DNA from: Lampropedia puyangensis
Lineage (GTDB): Bacteria > Pseudomonadota > Gammaproteobacteria > Burkholderiales > Burkholderiaceae_C
NCBI RefSeq assembly: GCF_004833285.1
Contig: NZ_STFG01000001.1
Span: forward strand, 496,001-560,000
DNA length: 64,000 nucleotides
Direction: 5' to 3'
Shown here: positions 4,440 through 12,682 of the stretch, in pieces
Numbering within the stretch: the stretch's first letter is position 1
Layout of the letters: the number at the start of each line of letters is the position of its first letter
Made by a program: the position numbers and the translations under genes
The notes under the pieces: model-generated
Database searches by the model: none
What the model saw: only the letters and a program-made list of their open reading frames with translations
What the model was told of the DNA's origin: nothing

Positions 4440-5117
4440 TTATGCTGGCTGGTGCAGGCGGCTGTGCACCAAGAGGCTGCCACGCAGGTTGCTCCATGCT
4501 TTTGCACCAGCGAGTACTGCCAGGTCAATCAAGGGCTCCAGCACAATCACACTCATATATGCTGCGCCAAAGCTGGCAATACTTTGCAGGTTGTCCGCAC
4601 CCACACCATGGCCATACAAGGCCCAGAACCCGACCCACAGCACGATACCGCCTTGGTATGCGATGGAGAGCTTGAATGCCTGCATGTATCCAATATCGAC
4701 ATAGGCCGTGTGCGCAGGGATGATTTTTTGCGCCAATGCGGCGGTAGCAAACAATGGCAGCAGCAAGGTGGTGACATTCATGCCGTATTGCGGTAAATCA
4801 AATGGCGCAAAGAATACACCTTGAATCAGCAAACCCGTGGCTAGACCAATGGCTGCAGGCGCTGTGCCAAACAGCAGGAGCAGCGTGGTGCCCAGAATGA
4901 GGTGCACCTCTGACACCCCTACCGGGTGGTGTGGAAAGATCTCAAAGAAGCAGAAGACCAGTGCACTGGCGATGGCTGTTCGCAACAGCACAGCCAGAAT
5001 GCCATCGCTGCGTAATGCGCGCAGCGTCAGCCATGCGGTGTAGCCCAGTGCCGCGCTGGCTGTCGCGTAGCTGAGCAAGATTTTGGAACCATCCACCATG
5101 CCGGGTTCGATATGCAT
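4440..5117 (-). CDS. cbiM: CbiM-type cobalt transporter membrane component
   Basis: A 225-residue polytopic protein starting MHIEPGMVDG. The Met-His start with a histidine at position 2 is the metal-binding hallmark of CbiM/NikM energy-coupling-factor transporters. It also carries PHHPVGVSEVHLILGTTLLL near residues 62-81, a conserved CbiM loop, and about six membrane segments. AAGGAG precedes the ATG. It is the last gene of the cobalamin-riboswitch operon, 60 bases after the VWA gene, which supports cobalt as substrate. No CbiN, CbiQ or CbiO partner is in the window, so it either works alone or uses components encoded elsewhere. Confidence 0.85.
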   Translation of the reverse strand: MHIEPGMVDGSKILLSYATASAALGYTAWLTLRALRSDGILAVLLRTAIASALVFCFFEIFPHHPVGVSEVHLILGTTLLLLFGTAPAAIGLATGLLIQGVFFAPFDLPQYGMNVTTLLLPLFATAALAQKIIPAHTAYVDIGYMQAFKLSIAYQGGIVLWVGFWALYGHGVGADNLQSIASFGAAYMSVIVLEPLIDLAVLAGAKAWSNLRGSLLVHSRLHQPA

Positions 5118-5177: not shown

Positions 5178-5909
5178 TTATCTGTTTTTCAATGTTGTAT
5201 GGATGTGCACTGAATCGTCGCTACTTGGCGGAGCGAGTTGATCCAGGTGGAGGTAGCTGCATTGCCAGCGTTGTGCCAACTGTGTCATGCGCGCTAACGG
5301 GATGCGGTTGCGCTCACAGTCCACTAAGGTCGTGTGTGCTGTATGGGTGGGGCGTTCCGGCAAATGTGCAACGCGGCCGTCGCTCAGCAGCCAAAGTGTG
5401 CGCTGGGCAGGGGCGTAACGGTGGGCGTTACGCAGGAGTTCATCGGCTTGCGTTACGGCTTGCGCCAAAGGGCTGTGGCCACCGCCACCAATAGGTGCCA
5501 GCCAAGCGTCATTCCAAGCCGGGGGGCGCTGTGGTGGCAGCTGCAGTTGCACGCCTTGGCCGCCAAAACAGAACAACGCCGCGTGGGCGCGCGCTTGGTA
5601 CGCCTCAGCCAACAAAGCCAGCAGCAGGCCTTTGGCGTGTGCCAAAGCCCCGGTTTGCCGCATGGATGCCGAACAATCGAGCACGATGCAGTGCAACGCG
5701 GTTTCGTGCGCCAGCGCAGGTTTGCGCTGTAAATGGTGCAAGCGCAATGGTTCAGCACCGCGTTGGCGCAGTGTCTGAGGCCAATCCCAACTGCCCATAG
5801 CGCTCGTGTTGAGGGTGGGAACGTTTGGGGTGCTGAGCCCTCCTGCCGCAACCGCACTGGCTGCGCGTATGCGGCACTTGGTGCTGTTGAGTGGGGCAGA
5901 AGGGCTCAT
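5178..5909 (-). CDS. chlD: VWA-domain chelatase subunit (C-terminal half of ChlD/BchD type)
   Basis: A 243-residue frame with a von Willebrand A domain resembling the C-terminal domain of the ChlD/BchD subunit. The MIDAS motif D-x-S-x-S is DCSAS (residues 78-82), followed by GGGGHSPL (141-148) and LSDGR (175-179). The first 60 residues are linker-like. Its ATG overlaps the stop of the AAA gene (ATGA), without a good Shine-Dalgarno. The frame is also entered by a -1 shift at TTTAAAAAAC just upstream, which would fuse it to the AAA-plus-proline-rich-linker protein and give a standard ChlD of about 622 residues. Role: with the AAA subunit it would drive CobN-dependent cobalt insertion. Confidence 0.85.
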   Translation of the reverse strand: MSPSAPLNSTKCRIRAASAVAAGGLSTPNVPTLNTSAMGSWDWPQTLRQRGAEPLRLHHLQRKPALAHETALHCIVLDCSASMRQTGALAHAKGLLLALLAEAYQARAHAALFCFGGQGVQLQLPPQRPPAWNDAWLAPIGGGGHSPLAQAVTQADELLRNAHRYAPAQRTLWLLSDGRVAHLPERPTHTAHTTLVDCERNRIPLARMTQLAQRWQCSYLHLDQLAPPSSDDSVHIHTTLKNR

Positions 5910-5921
5910 ACGTTTTTTAAA
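5835..5921 (-). promoter_or_regulatory. Candidate programmed -1 ribosomal frameshift signal
   Basis: Reading the minus strand in the AAA frame, CCT TTA AAA AAC GTA TGA contains two overlapping slippery heptamers in register: T TTA AAA (5921-5915) and A AAA AAC (5918-5912). A stem of 13 pairs follows: GAGCCCTTCTGCC (5907-5895) with GGCAGGAGGGCTC (5847-5835), perfect apart from one G-U pair, with a 47-base loop that can fold further. The gap from slippery site to stem is 4 or 7 bases. A -1 slip enters the VWA frame directly (next codons CGT ATG AGC). All elements are seen in sequence; their function is inferred. Confidence 0.72.
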
Positions 5922-7045
5922 GGCTCGCGCGGGGCAGCACTGGTTAACAACGGCGCATGAGAGGGAATACGTTGCAAACGCACGGGTTCAGGCGCCATGG
6001 CTCCCCAATCCGGTGGCGCGGTAGCGCCGAGTGCATCGGGATTTGGGGCTTGCTGCTCAGAGGCGGTCTGGCCAGCATGGGCTGTGCTCGTGGTGTGGCT
6101 GGGTTGTCGTTGTGGTGGTGCAGGTGGCGTGGTCGCTGCCTGTGCAGTGGACGATTGGGCTGGCTGTGTATTGGCATGGCCATGACTGCGGTGGGCCAGC
6201 ACCAGCGTCTTGACTTGGGCAACATGGGTAGTGGTGGTTTCGCTATCGCCTTGCCAGAGCGCGGCAGCCCGGGCGGCGCGCAGCCATACCATATCTGCGC
6301 GTAAACCGTTGACGGCCGCATCAATACAGCCTTGGCTCACCGCGGTGTGTACCGCATCGTTCCAGCCACCATCGGGCTGTGTGCTCCATTGATCCAAGCC
6401 AGTTCGCGCTGCGTGCAGGCGTTCTGCGAGCGCGGCATTGGCGTTTGCGTATTGCAGGCGGAATGCATGCGGATTGGCGTCAAATGCCAGCCGGGTTTTG
6501 ACGATGTGTTGGCGTAAGTGAGGCTCGGTCACATTGCCCAGTTGAACGTTCAAGCCCAAACGGTCTAGCAGCTGGGGGCGCAATTGACCTTCCTCAGGAT
6601 TCATGGTGCCAATCAACACGAACCGCGCAGGGTGGCTGTGTGAGATTCCATCGCGCTCGACCGTGTGAACGCCACTGGCAGCGGCATCGAGCAGTACATC
6701 GACAATGGCGTCAGGCAGCAGGTTGATCTCATCGACATACAGCACGCCACCATGGGCTTTGGCCAGCAGGCCGGGGGCAAATTCAACCGCGTGGCCCTGT
6801 ATGGCGCTGTTCAAATCTAAACTGCCTGCAACATGTTCCAAACTCGCACCCAAAGGCAGCGTTACAAAAGGCGAATGAGGCGCGAGCAGTTCGGACAATG
6901 CGCGAGCAGCGGTGCTTTTGGCGGTGCCTGACGGACCTTCAATCAACACGCCTCCAATAGCAGGGTCTATGGCCGCAAGCACTAAGGCGAGCTGCATGTC
7001 GGGTTGGCCTTTGATGGCGCTGAAAGGAAATAGGGCTTGTTCCAT
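5906..7045 (-). CDS. chlI: AAA+ chelatase subunit (ChlI/BchI-like) with ChlD-type linker
   Basis: A 379-residue ATPase. Walker A is GPSGTAKS (37-44), Walker B VLYVDE (101-106), and GTMNPEEGQLRPQLLDRLGL (about 148-167) is the sensor region typical of Mg/Co-chelatase AAA subunits. The last 80 or so residues are rich in Pro, Thr, Ala and Gln, like the linker that joins AAA and VWA domains in ChlD; a plain ChlI has no such tail. It lies 34 bases after cobN, and CobN systems need AAA and VWA partners. The zero-frame product would act as the small subunit and a frameshifted product as the medium subunit. Confidence 0.88.
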   Translation of the reverse strand: MEQALFPFSAIKGQPDMQLALVLAAIDPAIGGVLIEGPSGTAKSTAARALSELLAPHSPFVTLPLGASLEHVAGSLDLNSAIQGHAVEFAPGLLAKAHGGVLYVDEINLLPDAIVDVLLDAAASGVHTVERDGISHSHPARFVLIGTMNPEEGQLRPQLLDRLGLNVQLGNVTEPHLRQHIVKTRLAFDANPHAFRLQYANANAALAERLHAARTGLDQWSTQPDGGWNDAVHTAVSQGCIDAAVNGLRADMVWLRAARAAALWQGDSETTTTHVAQVKTLVLAHRSHGHANTQPAQSSTAQAATTPPAPPQRQPSHTTSTAHAGQTASEQQAPNPDALGATAPPDWGAMAPEPVRLQRIPSHAPLLTSAAPREPLKNV

Positions 7046-7079: not shown

Positions 7080-10000
7080 TTACGCTTGCATGCTGTTTTC
7101 CAAAGTCAGCAAATGCTGGGCAATCGCATCGGCATCATCTCCGGGCTGTTGCCACAAGCCGCGTTGCATGGCATCTACCAGGCGTTCGAGTACATCATGC
7201 AGGGCCGCAGGATTGTGCTGCTGCATGAACGCGCGGTTGTGCGCGTCGTGCACGTAGGCTTGGGTCACCAGGCTCCAATGGTGGTCACTGACCTGGCCTG
7301 TTGTCGCGGCGAAGCCAAACAAATAATCGACCGTGGCCGCCATTTCAAATGCGCCTTTGTAGCCGTGGCGTTGTGCACCTGCAATCCATTTCGGATTGGT
7401 GATGCGGGCGCGCACCACGCGGCCAATTTCTTCTTTCAGGCTTCGCACCTTGGCTTGTTGTGGATTGCGGTGGTCCCCATGGTAGAGCGCCGGTTGTTGG
7501 CCGCTGTGCTGCGCCACTGCGGTAGCCATGCCGCCCTGGAATTCGTAGTAATCGGCTGCATCAAGCACGTCGGCTTCGCCATGGTCGTGGTTGTGCAAAA
7601 CAATTTGCATGTCGTGCAAACGTTGTTGCAAGGCACTGTTGGCGGGCGTGCCTTCGGCGTGCTGGCCATAGGCAAAGGCACTCCACTGCACAAAGCGCTT
7701 GGCCAGATCGACTTGGCTGTGCCATTGACCGCTTTGCATTAATTCACTGATGCCTGTGCCGTATTGGCCCGGTGGGCTGCCGAAGATGCGCCAACCTGCT
7801 TGTTCTCGCGCTTGGGATGCTTCGATGCCTTGGGCTTGCAATTGCGCAGTTTCTCGCAGGATGCAGGCCCGGATGGGGTTTTGCGTTTCGTCTTCGCCTT
7901 CCACCGCGGCCACGGCTTGTACTGCCGCATCGAACATTTGCACTACGCCGGGAAATGCGTCGCGAAAAAAACCGGAGATGCGCAGTGTGACATCCACGCG
8001 AGGGCGATTCAAACCCACTTGAGGGATGACTTCAAAATCGGCCACGCGTTGGCTACCTGGAGCCCATTTAGGGCGCACGCCAATGAGTGCAAAGGCTTGG
8101 GCAATATCGTCGCCTCCTGTGCGCATGGTTGCTGTTCCCCAGACGGATAAACCCAGCGTTTTCGGGTATTCGCCATGCTCTTGCAGGTGCAGCTCCAGTA
8201 CGCGCCTGGCTGCTTGCTGGCCCAGCGTCCAGGCTGTGCTAGTGGGAATGGCGCGCGTGTCGATGGTGTAGAAGTTGCGGCCTGTAGGCAATACATCGGC
8301 ACGCCCCCGTGACGGAACTCCGCTGGGGCTCGGGGGGATGAATTGGCCTTGTAGTCCTGCGCTAAGGTGTTGCAGCTCCAGTGGGCCACAGGCATCCAGC
8401 GCAGGAGCGATGTGGTGTTCGATGGCCCGCAAAGCCACTTGTGTATGAGGCCCTAAAGGGTGAGGCCATGTTCCTGCAAGGATGTTGGCTGCGCCATGTT
8501 CCAGCCGCTCGCGGGTATCGCCGCAATGGCGCCAAGGTGCATCACTCAAGGCTTGCAGTACCGCAGGGCGCGGGCCAGACCAAGCGTGTGCTGCATCGGC
8601 CTGCCATGGATCGGTTAAGGCTGGGCCGTCAGTCGGGGTTAATAGGTCGTGGGCCAGTGCTTGTAACAAACTTAGCGTTGGTGCAGGAGGTTCGGCTTGC
8701 TGTGCCGATGAGGATCGATTGTGGGCACTTTGCACTGGGAAGTGGGCCAAAGCCAGTAAGGTTTGCGTGCGTTGTTCGTTAGAGGGGCTTTGACCAAAAA
8801 CATGCAGCCCATCGCGAATCTGTGTTTCTTTGAGCTCGCACAAATAAGCGTCAATGCGCTCCAGTACTGCATCATTTTCGCCCTGTGCAAGCGACTCTTG
8901 CAGATCCAGCTCTTCTGCCAATTGCTGCTCGCGCACTGCTTGCAGAATGTGCTGGCGCAGTAATGCCGCGCGGCGTGCATCTACCAGCAGTGCGTCATAG
9001 TACTCGTCAACCAAGGCTTCTAGCTCTAGCATGGCGCCGTGCTGTTCGGCACGGGTAATGGGGGGCATGAGATGGCTGATGATGACGGCTTGGCTGCGGC
9101 GTTTGGCTTGTGCGCCTTCACCAGGGTCATTGACGATAAAGGGGTACAGGTGTGGCAGCGGGCCTAAGATGGCATCGGGCCAGCACTGGGCTGACAGGGC
9201 TAGGCTTTTGCCGGGCAACCACTCGAGGTTGCCGTGTGTGCCCACGTGCACCATCGCATCAATAGCGAATACATCACGCAGCCAAAAGTAAAACGCTAAG
9301 TAGTGGTGTGGCGGTACTTGCTCTGCGTCATGGTAACTTGCGTAATCTTGTGGTGCATGGACGTTGGCATGTGTGCGTGAAGGTTGAATGCCAATGAATA
9401 CATGGCCTAAACGCAAACCTGCAATCATGAAGCGGCCTTGACGCAGCATGGGGTCTTGCTCTGGGGGGCCCCAGCGTGCGTGCAACGCCTGTTGCATGTT
9501 GGGGGCTAGTTGGTTCAGGCGGACTTGGTAGTCGGACAGGGGATAGCTTTGCCAAGCGGGGCGCAGCGGCCATTGTGCGGGGTCATTGGCAATCCCTTGT
9601 TGCAGCCAGTGCATCAATTGCTCGCCATCCAGAGGCATGTTTTCCTCTGGCCCCAAGGCATACCCCTCTTGTTTTAAGCGCTGCACAATCTGCAGGATGG
9701 AGGCGGGGGTATCCAAACCAATGCCGCTGCCAATACGCCCTTCGCTACCGGGGTAGTTAGCCAAGATCAGGGCGAGTTTTTTTTGTGTAGCAGGTATTTG
9801 GCGCAAGCGGCACCAACGGGCGGCCAATTCAGCCACAAAGGCCACGCGGTCAGGTTCAGGCAAGTAACCCACCACGTCTGTTTGCGTCCATTCACATCGG
9901 CGCAGCAAGCCTTTGAAGCTGATCGCGCGTGTGATGATGCGGCCATCCAGCTCCGGCAATACCACCTGCATGGCGATATCGCGAGGGCGCAAACCCTGCG

Positions 10001-10958
10001 GATCGGCTTGCCAGTCTTCTCGGTTGCCACCACTGACAATGGCTTGAATGACGGGGGCATCACCAGCCAGCCGCTCAGTATCGTGCGTGCTGTCTGCATT
10101 CAAGGCTGCAAAGGCAGTGGTGTTGAGTACCACTTGCACATCGTGGGTGCGGCACAGTTGGCGCAGGGTTGCCAGGCACAGCGCATCTTTGAGGGAGTCA
10201 ATCGCCAACGGTAAGGCGTTGATGCCTTGTTGCTGCAGGGCCAATGCCAGTGCATCAAACACGCCGGTGTTGCCTGCCAGTAGGTGGGCGCGGTAAAACA
10301 CAATCGCTGCGACTGGTGCGTCAGGCAGCCAGTGGGCTTGCAAGTCGGCGACGCTGGCAATGCTGGAGCTCGGTTGCACGCTTGCAGCCGACCAGGCCGC
10401 TGGCACATGGATGGCCACTTGGGGTAGGGCGCGCGGAGGCTCAGGCCGCGCTCCATATTGCAGGCCAAACCATGCGGTGGCTTGCAAAAAAGAACGTGCG
10501 TTGCGCGCACCGCCTGCGCGCAAGTATTGCCACAGCTGTTGGCTGACTTCAACAGGCAAGGTGCTACGGGCAAGCAGATGCGGGTCTTGTTGCAAATCAC
10601 CTGAAAACATGGCCAGTTGCTGGCCCCGCACCTTCGCCAGTGCGCTGATTTGTTGGATACCGTAAGGCCATGCAGATTCTGAACCTAGGTGATCCACAAT
10701 CACCACGTTGGCATGCTGTAGTACTTCATCGACATACAAATCAAGCGAAGCGTTTTGCCGCAAGTGCAACAAGTTGGCCAGGCGCACACTGGGAAAGTCG
10801 CTGTGTTGCTCCGCCAGGCTGGCACAGGCCTGCGCCAGCAATGCCAGCGTGGTGTCGGCAGAGCTGAGTATGACGATGGAGGCAGGCGTTTGGTCCAGGC
10901 GGGTGATGATGCTGTCATCCTCGACAAAGCCTCCTGCGCGGGTGCTGAGCAAATGCAT
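7080..10958 (-). CDS. cobN: Cobaltochelatase large subunit CobN
   Basis: A 1292-residue protein, within the usual size for CobN, the porphyrin-binding subunit that inserts cobalt into hydrogenobyrinate a,c-diamide in aerobic cobalamin synthesis. Recognisable segments are LANYPGSEGRIGSGIGLDTP (mid-protein), FYFWLRDVFAIDAMVHVGTH followed by GNLEWLPGK, PPITRAEQHG, GRNFYTIDTRAIPT, TMRTGGDDIAQAFALIGVRP, and near the C-terminus PKWIAGAQRHGYKGAFEMA with DYLFGFAATT. It follows cobW by 29 bases in the riboswitch-controlled operon. MgChl ChlH is a paralogue, but the cobW/riboswitch context makes cobalt the clear choice. Confidence 0.95.
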   Translation of the reverse strand: MHLLSTRAGGFVEDDSIITRLDQTPASIVILSSADTTLALLAQACASLAEQHSDFPSVRLANLLHLRQNASLDLYVDEVLQHANVVIVDHLGSESAWPYGIQQISALAKVRGQQLAMFSGDLQQDPHLLARSTLPVEVSQQLWQYLRAGGARNARSFLQATAWFGLQYGARPEPPRALPQVAIHVPAAWSAASVQPSSSIASVADLQAHWLPDAPVAAIVFYRAHLLAGNTGVFDALALALQQQGINALPLAIDSLKDALCLATLRQLCRTHDVQVVLNTTAFAALNADSTHDTERLAGDAPVIQAIVSGGNREDWQADPQGLRPRDIAMQVVLPELDGRIITRAISFKGLLRRCEWTQTDVVGYLPEPDRVAFVAELAARWCRLRQIPATQKKLALILANYPGSEGRIGSGIGLDTPASILQIVQRLKQEGYALGPEENMPLDGEQLMHWLQQGIANDPAQWPLRPAWQSYPLSDYQVRLNQLAPNMQQALHARWGPPEQDPMLRQGRFMIAGLRLGHVFIGIQPSRTHANVHAPQDYASYHDAEQVPPHHYLAFYFWLRDVFAIDAMVHVGTHGNLEWLPGKSLALSAQCWPDAILGPLPHLYPFIVNDPGEGAQAKRRSQAVIISHLMPPITRAEQHGAMLELEALVDEYYDALLVDARRAALLRQHILQAVREQQLAEELDLQESLAQGENDAVLERIDAYLCELKETQIRDGLHVFGQSPSNEQRTQTLLALAHFPVQSAHNRSSSAQQAEPPAPTLSLLQALAHDLLTPTDGPALTDPWQADAAHAWSGPRPAVLQALSDAPWRHCGDTRERLEHGAANILAGTWPHPLGPHTQVALRAIEHHIAPALDACGPLELQHLSAGLQGQFIPPSPSGVPSRGRADVLPTGRNFYTIDTRAIPTSTAWTLGQQAARRVLELHLQEHGEYPKTLGLSVWGTATMRTGGDDIAQAFALIGVRPKWAPGSQRVADFEVIPQVGLNRPRVDVTLRISGFFRDAFPGVVQMFDAAVQAVAAVEGEDETQNPIRACILRETAQLQAQGIEASQAREQAGWRIFGSPPGQYGTGISELMQSGQWHSQVDLAKRFVQWSAFAYGQHAEGTPANSALQQRLHDMQIVLHNHDHGEADVLDAADYYEFQGGMATAVAQHSGQQPALYHGDHRNPQQAKVRSLKEEIGRVVRARITNPKWIAGAQRHGYKGAFEMAATVDYLFGFAATTGQVSDHHWSLVTQAYVHDAHNRAFMQQHNPAALHDVLERLVDAMQRGLWQQPGDDADAIAQHLLTLENSMQA

Positions 10959-10987: not shown

Positions 10988-12046
10988 TTAGGCTGGCAGC
11001 CCGAGCAATGCATGCAGTTCAGATTGCAGCGCAGCAGCATCGAGTTCTTGCCCAATGAACACTAAGCGTGTGGAGCGCGCTTCATCTGCGCGCCAAGCTC
11101 GGTCAAAATGGGCATCAAACCGTTTGCCTACGCCTTGCACCAGCAAACGCATGGGCTTGCCGGGTACCGCGACGAAACCCTTGACGCGCAAGATCGATTG
11201 ACGCTGCACCAATTGGGCTAGAGCATTGAGAAGTGCTTCTTTGCTGACTTCTGGCAGGCTCAAATCAAATGAGTCAAAGTCGTCGTGGTCATGGTCTTCT
11301 TCATGGTCGTGGTGGCTTTTGCGTTGGTCGATAGTGGTTTCGGCCGCTTTGCCCAAACCAAGCAAGACGGGCAGGGGCAATACGCCGTTGCTAGCCTGGA
11401 TGATTTTGACTTCCGCTGGAATTTCTGCACGCACCAGTTGCTCCACTTGTGCTAAGGCTTGGGTGTCGACTAAATCTGCCTTGTTCAGGATGACCAAATC
11501 GGCAGCCGATAGCTGATCTTCAAACAACTCGTGCAGTGGCGATTCATGGTCTAAATTGGGGTCGGCTTGGCGTTGCGCATCCACCGCTTGCGGGTTGGCT
11601 GCAAATTGCCCTGCGAAGGCTGCGGGTGTATCCACTACTGTCACTACGGCATCCACAGTGAACACGTTGGCAATTTCAGGCCATTGGAAAGCTTGCACCA
11701 GTGGCTTTGGCAAAGCCAGACCAGATGTTTCGATCAAGATGGCGTCAATGTCTTGGCGGCGTTCAGCCAGCTTTTTCATGACAGGGAAGAACTCCTCTTG
11801 CACGGTGCAGCACATGCAGCCGTTGGCCAGTTCGTAGAGCTGACCATCGACTTCGTTGCCGGCATCGTCACAGCCAATGCCACAACTTTTGAGGATGTCG
11901 CCATCAATGCCCAGTTCGCCAAACTCATTGACGATCACGGCAATGCGCTGGCCGTTGGCGTTGTCCAGAATATGGCGCAGCAAAGTGGTTTTGCCGCTGC
12001 CGAGAAAACCAGTAACGATGGTGGCGGGAATTCTTGCAGTTTGCAT
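10988..12046 (-). CDS. cobW: CobW-type metallochaperone GTPase
   Basis: A 352-residue G3E-family GTPase. Walker A is GFLGSGKT (13-20), the metal-binding CMCC lies at 77-80, NKAD (188-191) is the guanine-specificity motif, and a His/Asp-rich loop (HHDHEEDHDHDD, 245-256) is followed by the CobW C-terminal domain. It is thought to deliver cobalt to the chelatase. I chose the ATG at 12046 where homology begins; the longer frame runs into the leader. It is the first gene after the cobalamin riboswitch, about 380 bases downstream of the aptamer, and starts the cobW-cobN-chelatase-cbiM operon. Confidence 0.93.
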   Translation of the reverse strand: MQTARIPATIVTGFLGSGKTTLLRHILDNANGQRIAVIVNEFGELGIDGDILKSCGIGCDDAGNEVDGQLYELANGCMCCTVQEEFFPVMKKLAERRQDIDAILIETSGLALPKPLVQAFQWPEIANVFTVDAVVTVVDTPAAFAGQFAANPQAVDAQRQADPNLDHESPLHELFEDQLSAADLVILNKADLVDTQALAQVEQLVRAEIPAEVKIIQASNGVLPLPVLLGLGKAAETTIDQRKSHHDHEEDHDHDDFDSFDLSLPEVSKEALLNALAQLVQRQSILRVKGFVAVPGKPMRLLVQGVGKRFDAHFDRAWRADEARSTRLVFIGQELDAAALQSELHALLGLPA

Positions 12047-12427
12047 GGTCGGTGACTTAAAAAGTTGGGGTTGCTTGCACGTTGGTATGGACGGCTTTAC
12101 CAAGCACGTAACGTGCAGGGGAATAACGAGAGGGGGGCGACAGCACAATCGCCGGAGCCAATGTGGCGCGTTTGTTTTCTATCTGCGTGAGGGGGTAGCT
12201 ATTGTGTGTGCGTTGACAGGCACCAAGGCGCCCAACAGCAGACGGCATCATGCAGCCATGACGCAATAAGCTTTGCCTTGCAGAGTATGAATGGATTGTC
12301 TGCGCAACTGCGCAGAAAGAGGTGACAGGTTTTTGTAATCTGTCTCGAGCTGCTGTCATGGCTGGCACTCCCGCGTCGCCGATGAATCTGCGCACCAGGC
12401 TTTGGCAGCCGCAGCGCGAACGGACGC
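12047..12427 (-). promoter_or_regulatory. Long leader between cobalamin aptamer and cobW
   Basis: About 380 bases of transcribed leader lie between the aptamer and the cobW start, unusually long for a cobalamin-riboswitch expression platform. Some frames run through it (one of 134 codons starting inside the aptamer), but none resembles a known protein. No classic terminator with a T-run is visible near the aptamer, so control may act on translation, on Rho, or through long-range pairing; that is inference. Confidence 0.4.
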
Positions 12428-12650
12428 GGTCGGGCCGGTATCCGGGCTTGTGGCGCGCCATTCATAATGACTAACGGTTTCAACCTTCCCACCCGACTCA
12501 TCGGGGCAGTGGCCGCTGCCACTGGCAGCAATAAACCGTGTTAACACCACTGACCGTTGCGGGGGCAGCGCAGGCTTTGCATAAACCCAATGGAATGCGC
12601 ACCTGCTTCCCGTTTAACTGGGTGAGCAATGCCTCACCACAGCACCAGAC
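12428..12650 (-). ncRNA. Cobalamin riboswitch (AdoCbl type)
   Basis: Minus-strand reading shows the ordered conserved boxes of the cobalamin aptamer: AAACGGGAAGCAGGTG (around 12615-12600), GCTGCCCCCGCAACGG (12569-12554), the arm with GCCAGTGG and GCCACTG, GGGTGGGAAGG, and finally the B12 box AAGCCCGGATACCGGCCC (12449-12432). Ends are approximate. It lies upstream of cobW on the same strand, so high cobalamin should repress cobalt delivery, the chelatase and the CbiM-type permease together. Confidence 0.93.
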
Positions 12651-12682
12651 AGCGAAATGCAGCCTCTGGGGCTGCATTAGTG

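Follow-up and report, generated by a model that had tools for sequence, protein, structure and literature searches.

A set of genes arranged in the order cobalamin riboswitch, cobW, cobN, AAA gene, VWA gene and CbiM-like gene was found in a 64-kb stretch of Lampropedia puyangensis DNA (hereafter the window; G+C content 53%). The features and the matches that identify them are as follows.

12416..12664, minus strand: cobalamin riboswitch ahead of cobW (Rfam RF00174, 81.5 bits, gathering threshold 31.5)
10988..12148, minus strand: cobW, cobalt metallochaperone, start codon unrefined (TIGR02475, 519.8 bits, cut-off 332.1)
7080..10958, minus strand: cobN, large cobaltochelatase subunit, directly upstream of the AAA gene (TIGR02257, 1475.6 bits, cut-off 822.05)
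5906..7045, minus strand: AAA gene, ChlI-like, 379 residues with a Pro-rich tail (open reading frame, profile and structure matches)
5178..5909, minus strand: VWA gene, 243 residues from its ATG, in the -1 frame (open reading frame, TIGR02442, PDB 2x31)
4440..5117, minus strand: CbiM-like cobalt transporter gene, downstream of the VWA gene (PF01891, 56.5 bits, cut-off 23.1)

The riboswitch presumably controls the whole cluster. The NCBIfam CbiM models gave only below-cut-off matches to the 4440..5117 gene. The AAA gene matched Pfam Mg_chelatase (1.2e-12) and AAA_lid_2, and solved ChlI structures matched its AAA part (PDB ChlI 6l8d, 2.2e-73). The VWA half matched the magnesium-chelatase 60 kDa subunit (PDB 2x31, 6.6e-9), with Pfam VWA_2 just below its cut-off (26.9 bits against 27). 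The two halves aligned to opposite ends of the single-chain model TIGR02442, the AAA half with E 3.1e-106 (356.3 bits) and the VWA half, over profile positions 460-641, with E 7.7e-22 (77.5 bits); scored separately in this way, neither half reached the curated cut-off of 779.45, and the locus was not assigned to this model. The long Pro-rich tail described for the AAA protein was confirmed, with 16 Pro among its last 90 residues.

Two slippery heptamers and a 14-bp stem lie at the AAA-VWA junction

At the end of the AAA gene the minus strand reads, 5' to 3', GAG CCT TTA AAA AAC GTA TGA. The following elements were mapped at this junction.

5915..5921, minus strand: slippery heptamer T_TTA_AAA, 6 nt before the stop, with lysine AAA in the A site
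5912..5918, minus strand: slippery heptamer A_AAA_AAC, 3 nt before the stop, where 117 of the 124 junctions compared below have A_AAA_AAR
5906..5909, minus strand: ATGA overlap of the AAA stop TGA (5908-5906) and the VWA ATG (5909-5907)
5834..5908, minus strand: candidate stimulatory stem, 14 bp with one G-U, its loop containing inner hairpins (arms 5908-5895 and 5847-5834)

The VWA frame proved to be -1 relative to the AAA frame, and both heptamers named in the original prediction, T_TTA_AAA at 5921-5915 and A_AAA_AAC at 5918-5912, are in register for a -1 slip. The predicted stem is present with its single G-U pair but is one pair longer than the 13 bp claimed, TGAGCCCTTCTGCC (5908-5895) pairing with GGCAGGAGGGCTCA (5847-5834). 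Its offset was given correctly: the first base of the stem is the T of the TGA, which is the second base of the VWA ATG, the fourth base after A_AAA_AAC and the seventh after T_TTA_AAA. No shuffle out of 60 gave a helix that long. The 111-nt junction folded to -44.7 kcal/mol, against a shuffle mean of -28.6 kcal/mol (z -5.3), and 0 of 200 shuffles were equally stable; another fold of the stem gave -44 kcal/mol (z -5.5).

Chance occurrence of these elements was assessed within the 64-kb window. Counting both strands, AAAAAAC occurs 32 times, against 15.2 expected from dinucleotide shuffles, and six of the copies are in frame within a set of 56 long open reading frames that were chosen greedily; the heptamer alone was rejected as evidence of frameshifting because it is common in the window. 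Among the same 56 reading frames, only the AAA gene has an in-frame T_TTA_AAA, and only the AAA gene, with its 14 bp, has a helix of more than 8 bp beginning at the stop or directly after it; in six others the helix measures 8 bp. The combination of heptamer and stem is not ordinary within the window.

The -1 arrangement is conserved in related loci

Related loci were gathered by similarity to the AAA protein, independently of any frameshift feature. One search contributed the best 80 of its 578 confirmed loci; genome samples of 399, 399 and 369 contributed 48, 11 and 21 matching genomes (the L. puyangensis genome included), a further family sample of 339 genomes held no matching genome beyond those of the first 399-genome sample, and a plasmid search gave 12 records. 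A VWA match within 1500 nt was sought at 165 loci and found at 159, the six without one being L014, L015, L016, L020, L053 and L165. The 159 positive loci comprised 18 in-frame fusions (L037 and L126 among them), 10 loci whose VWA part lies over 900 nt away from the stop of the AAA gene, and 131 with it nearby in the -1 frame; at none of the 159 was it in the +1 frame. Dropping seven identical junctions from the 131 left 124, window included (69 from named records and 55 from genomes). At nine of the ten distant loci the VWA match lies on a separate second open reading frame, which in eight cases also carries another AAA-like match, and by this layout the nine are read as having ChlI and ChlD as separate genes. 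The tenth (L063, Rhodoferax MAG, 36-1110) has the usual A_AAA_AAA GCC TGA junction and stands outside the 124, with an early stop at codon 13 of the AAA reading.

A slippery heptamer was present at most 24 nt before the stop at all 124 non-identical junctions, and at 123 of them, the exception being the window, it ends in AAA or AAG. A_AAA_AAA or A_AAA_AAG stands exactly 3 nt before the stop at 117 junctions, 6 nt before it at one and 24 nt before it at three, so that the strict A_AAA_AAR form is found in 121 of 124 and is absent from the window. The three junctions at 24 nt (L013, L122 and L124) make up a small clade; its 0-frame stop lies that far, instead of 3 nt, behind A_AAA_AAA. At two junctions (L171 and L172), C_CCA_AAG replaces A_AAA_AAR at the identical position, 3 nt before the stop. 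According to passages of PMC4066793, homogeneous A-site codons such as AAR shift better than AAY in E. coli, Y_YYA_AAR motifs are shifty exceptions, and C_CCA_AAG is the highest. Since the C_CCA_AAG junctions carry the motif with the highest shifting in E. coli, it is seemingly slipperiness that is conserved, and not Lys-Lys.

At 95 of the 124 junctions a helix of 8 bp or more begins 4-10 nt behind the heptamer, against 14.8 expected from dinucleotide shuffles. Taken singly, 71 of the 124 junctions gave a shuffle p <0.05 for the helix, and 51 of 103 had a fold z below -2, the z counts coming from a 111-locus subset of the relatives. The gap between heptamer and stem is most commonly 6 nt (72 of 124). 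Paired positions in the 95 helices show up to four Watson-Crick types, although these helices were picked for pairing and the counts lean towards structure. The refuting condition set in advance was loss of heptamer and stem in relatives that keep both genes, and no such loss emerged, the heptamer being kept at 124 of 124 junctions and a helix of at least 8 bp at 95. In the search for the same heptamer and a covarying stem, a slippery heptamer and varied base pairs recurred across the relatives; A_AAA_AAC itself is confined to the window. Tandem heptamers as such are not peculiar to this locus (C_CCA_AAA then A_AAA_AAA at five further junctions, two overlapping A_AAA_AAA at one). The cobN context is shared as well, with cobN upstream on the same strand at 119 of the 123 loci that have at least 1000 nt of upstream sequence. 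The family comparison shows selection preserving a slippery heptamer in register and, in most cases, a stem; the stem sequence and sometimes the heptamer type drift.

The genome has one ChlI-like locus and no CobS or CobT was found

Further cob genes of the genome lie on another contig (cobG, cobH, cobI, cobJ, cbiET and cobM, of which cobG and the CbiE part scored below curated cut-offs). In L188 (G000:C67), the molybdate-transport-like genes modA, modB and modD lie between cobJ and cbiET, amid aerobic cob genes. Neither CobS nor CobT was found in the genome, and no second ChlI-like locus was present at E 1e-20 or better. Two proteins considered as replacement subunits were discarded, the VWA protein G000:C12 being YfbK-like and the AAA protein G000:C11 MoxR-like, neither of them CobT- or ChlI-looking. 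That one fs-chlD gene could supply both the small and the medium subunit is an idea put forward in PMC9227772, and the gene content of this genome fits it.

A single ChlI-like locus was found in 25 of 25 tested genomes, 14 with the frameshift type and 11 with an in-frame fusion; the latter stand behind 11 of the 18 fused loci, and the search in them was for ChlI-like loci. The absence of a separate ChlI therefore does not discriminate, because 11 of 11 fused-gene genomes lack one too, and a missing small-subunit gene does not prove a need for the short product. Fused-gene genomes either make a short subunit in another way or do without. The two-product idea does not explain these one-locus genomes, which bears on the need for a short product.

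Proposed expression of the locus

From an arrangement, a conservation and a genome context that are directly established, we infer slippage, both products and their assembly. The locus is very probably a frameshift-type chlD (fs-chlD) of the aerobic cobaltochelatase, giving a 379-residue AAA protein and, through a -1 slip, a 622-residue fusion. Most ribosomes would end at the TGA at 5908-5906 and release the ChlI-like AAA protein as the proposed small subunit. A fraction, held at the 14-bp stem, would slip back one base on TTTAAAAAAC and enter the VWA frame, yielding a ChlD-like proposed medium subunit; the length of 622 residues for a slip at AAC was recalculated and is correct. Both products would work with CobN under B12-riboswitch control, and ribosomes that restart, by coupling, on the overlapping ATG may supply some additional free VWA protein.

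Where the slip would occur is less clear than first proposed. A_AAA_AAC, on which it had been placed, is in register but is an unusual site (1 of 124), and T_TTA_AAA is possibly the main one. A_AAA_AAC is described in PMC4066793 as a low-efficiency site in E. coli that some insertion sequences nonetheless employ, and T_TTA_AAA, which belongs to the Y_YYA_AAR class, still places a lysine AAR codon in the A site like the 123 other junctions; part, most or much of the slipping may therefore take place on T_TTA_AAA, one codon upstream of the usual place. The two sites predict different junction peptides, Leu-Lys-Lys-Arg for T_TTA_AAA and Leu-Lys-Asn-Arg for A_AAA_AAC. The gap of 6 nt from T_TTA_AAA to the stem matches the commonest gap in the relatives; six other junctions have a helix starting from the stop codon and yet an unmoved A_AAA_AAR, which weighs against reading much into the gap. 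On the other hand, A_AAA_AAC may be little weaker than the A_AAA_AAA of the relatives, since PMC5009743 groups both as much less shifty than A_AAA_AAG. Three fs-chlD reporters in E. coli (PMC3711429) shifted at 63, 40 and 10% for 11, 9 and 7 A, which speaks for frameshifting in this class; counting against it at the window junction, the shortest run tested, seven A, gave only 10%.

Stop-start restart, transcriptional slippage and gene decay

The ATGA overlap also fits translational coupling, in which the AAA protein ends at the TGA, ribosomes restart at the overlapping ATG and the halves are never joined in this species. The stop-adjacent A_AAA_AAC, unlike the heptamer of the 123 other junctions, suits this explanation, and so does Antonov 2013 (PMC3711429), where some of the pairs tested showed initiation as well as frameshifting, the two are called interchangeable, and recoding is stated to be able to co-occur with coupling. 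We nevertheless consider coupling alone improbable. The VWA ATG was correctly described as sitting at the stem edge without a strong Shine-Dalgarno, no Shine-Dalgarno-like 4-mer being found in the 26 bases before the AAA stop, although coupling without one is possible; across the 124 junctions, 36 have such a 4-mer in the stretch examined. A 14-bp stem running from the second base of the ATG would hinder free initiation, and the heptamers and stem are kept although coupling depends on neither. The -1 codon over the stop is CTG at 94 junctions, CTA at 25, ATG at two, GTG at two and TTA at one, so that ATG or GTG overlaps the stop at just 4 of 124: ATG in the window and in L186, which retains A_AAA_AAA, and GTG in L109 and L185. 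Between the heptamer and the VWA match, as bounded by BLAST, 53 of the 124 junctions contain no ATG, GTG or TTG at which the VWA part could start independently, a count in favour of frameshifting, and 107 contain no ATG. A correlation between overlapping start codons and lost stems was dropped, as L109, L185 and L186 do have weak helices but belong to one large tree group where weak helices are common; the window helix, by contrast with these three, is strong in the shuffle test despite its overlapping ATG.

The frame change could also arise before translation, through the polymerase stuttering on T/A runs. Motifs for such transcriptional slippage, as defined in a section of PMC3711429, are homopolymers of eight or more or two shorter runs combined; TTTAAAAAA in the window is a two-run combination of this sort, and A runs precede the stop at 122 of the 124 junctions. 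The A run of the window is only six long, however, the C_CCA_AAG of L171 and L172 comes without a long run, and the register, stop spacing and stem suit ribosomal slippage, leaving polymerase stutter very improbable. A decaying or mis-assembled gene, the frame change being a plain mutation or a sequencing error, has nothing further in its favour than the frame break itself and is hardly credible given the same -1 relation across 124 non-identical junctions, a site that differs from the common form at several bases and not through a single indel, and a DxSxS metal site and Walker motifs that seem intact by eye.

The slip site of the window appears derived

A quick maximum-likelihood tree built from 142 shifted or fused proteins placed the window as sister to L007, L008 and L010 (SH-aLRT 95), its row being flagged for unusual composition. 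The other six members of its group of seven carry A_AAA_AAA, and A_AAA_AAC is therefore most simply derived; both A_AAA_AAC and T_TTA_AAA near the stop are found in the window only (each 1 of 124). The junction surroundings of L010 and L008 are identical to those of the Vandammella animalimorsus records L045 and L050. At the corresponding place the sister junctions carry stems of quite another sequence, suggesting that the stem was rebuilt and not inherited letter by letter. Some of the change at the slip site may be due to drift towards A+T.

One can go further and suppose, although we think it rather unlikely, that the species stands between two routes to the same subunits. A_AAA_AAR would have lost its last lysine codon, the fallback T_TTA_AAA would have arisen one codon upstream, the stem would have been extended by three bases with the 6-nt gap kept, and CTG over the stop would have become ATG. 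Frameshifting and stop-start restart would then run side by side, as an intermediate in splitting into two coupled genes. The window is a natural variant in which slip strength can be weighed against an overlapping start codon.

Discussion

The L. puyangensis locus is a genuine member of the known fs-chlD class and very probably a functional one, as judged from its sequence and that of its relatives. The principle is already published (PMC3711429, PMC9227772), and the derived slip site is a modest variant of it. Our literature search, which did not cover Antonov 2020, yielded no paper that we recognised as treating this locus. Among cellular genes that use programmed frameshifting, the locus is a further clear example.

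The closest known systems are the fs-chlD genes of the magnesium chelatase fs-gene cluster. As described in PMC3711429 and PMC9227772, they share with the window an AAA reading frame followed by a -1 VWA reading frame, a slippery site just before the 0-frame stop, a downstream stem and the CobN context, and no separate small-subunit gene was found. The window differs from them in having T_TTA_AAA and A_AAA_AAC instead of A_AAA_AAR, and a VWA ATG over the stop.

In-frame fused ChlD proteins, modelled by TIGR02442, have the same domain order and nearly the same length (median 575.5 aa for 18 fused against 569.5 aa for 124 shifted proteins, from the first aligned AAA residue). Unlike the window they have no frame change and hence no AAA-only product from the junction. 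Among insertion sequences, IS1, which we take to be the proven A_AAA_AAC case, concerns a transposase and has no established stimulator, whereas the window concerns a chelatase and has a 14-bp stem. The insertion-sequence frameshift reported as proven in a part of PMC4066793 uses the same heptamer as the window.

E. coli dnaX (gamma/tau), in the account given in PMC3711429, is likewise a single gene for two subunits of the same complex, made through a -1 slip on an A-rich heptamer that a hairpin follows. The shifted product of dnaX is the shorter of its two, while that of the window is predicted to be the longer, and the Shine-Dalgarno-like upstream stimulator of dnaX has no counterpart seen at the window junction.
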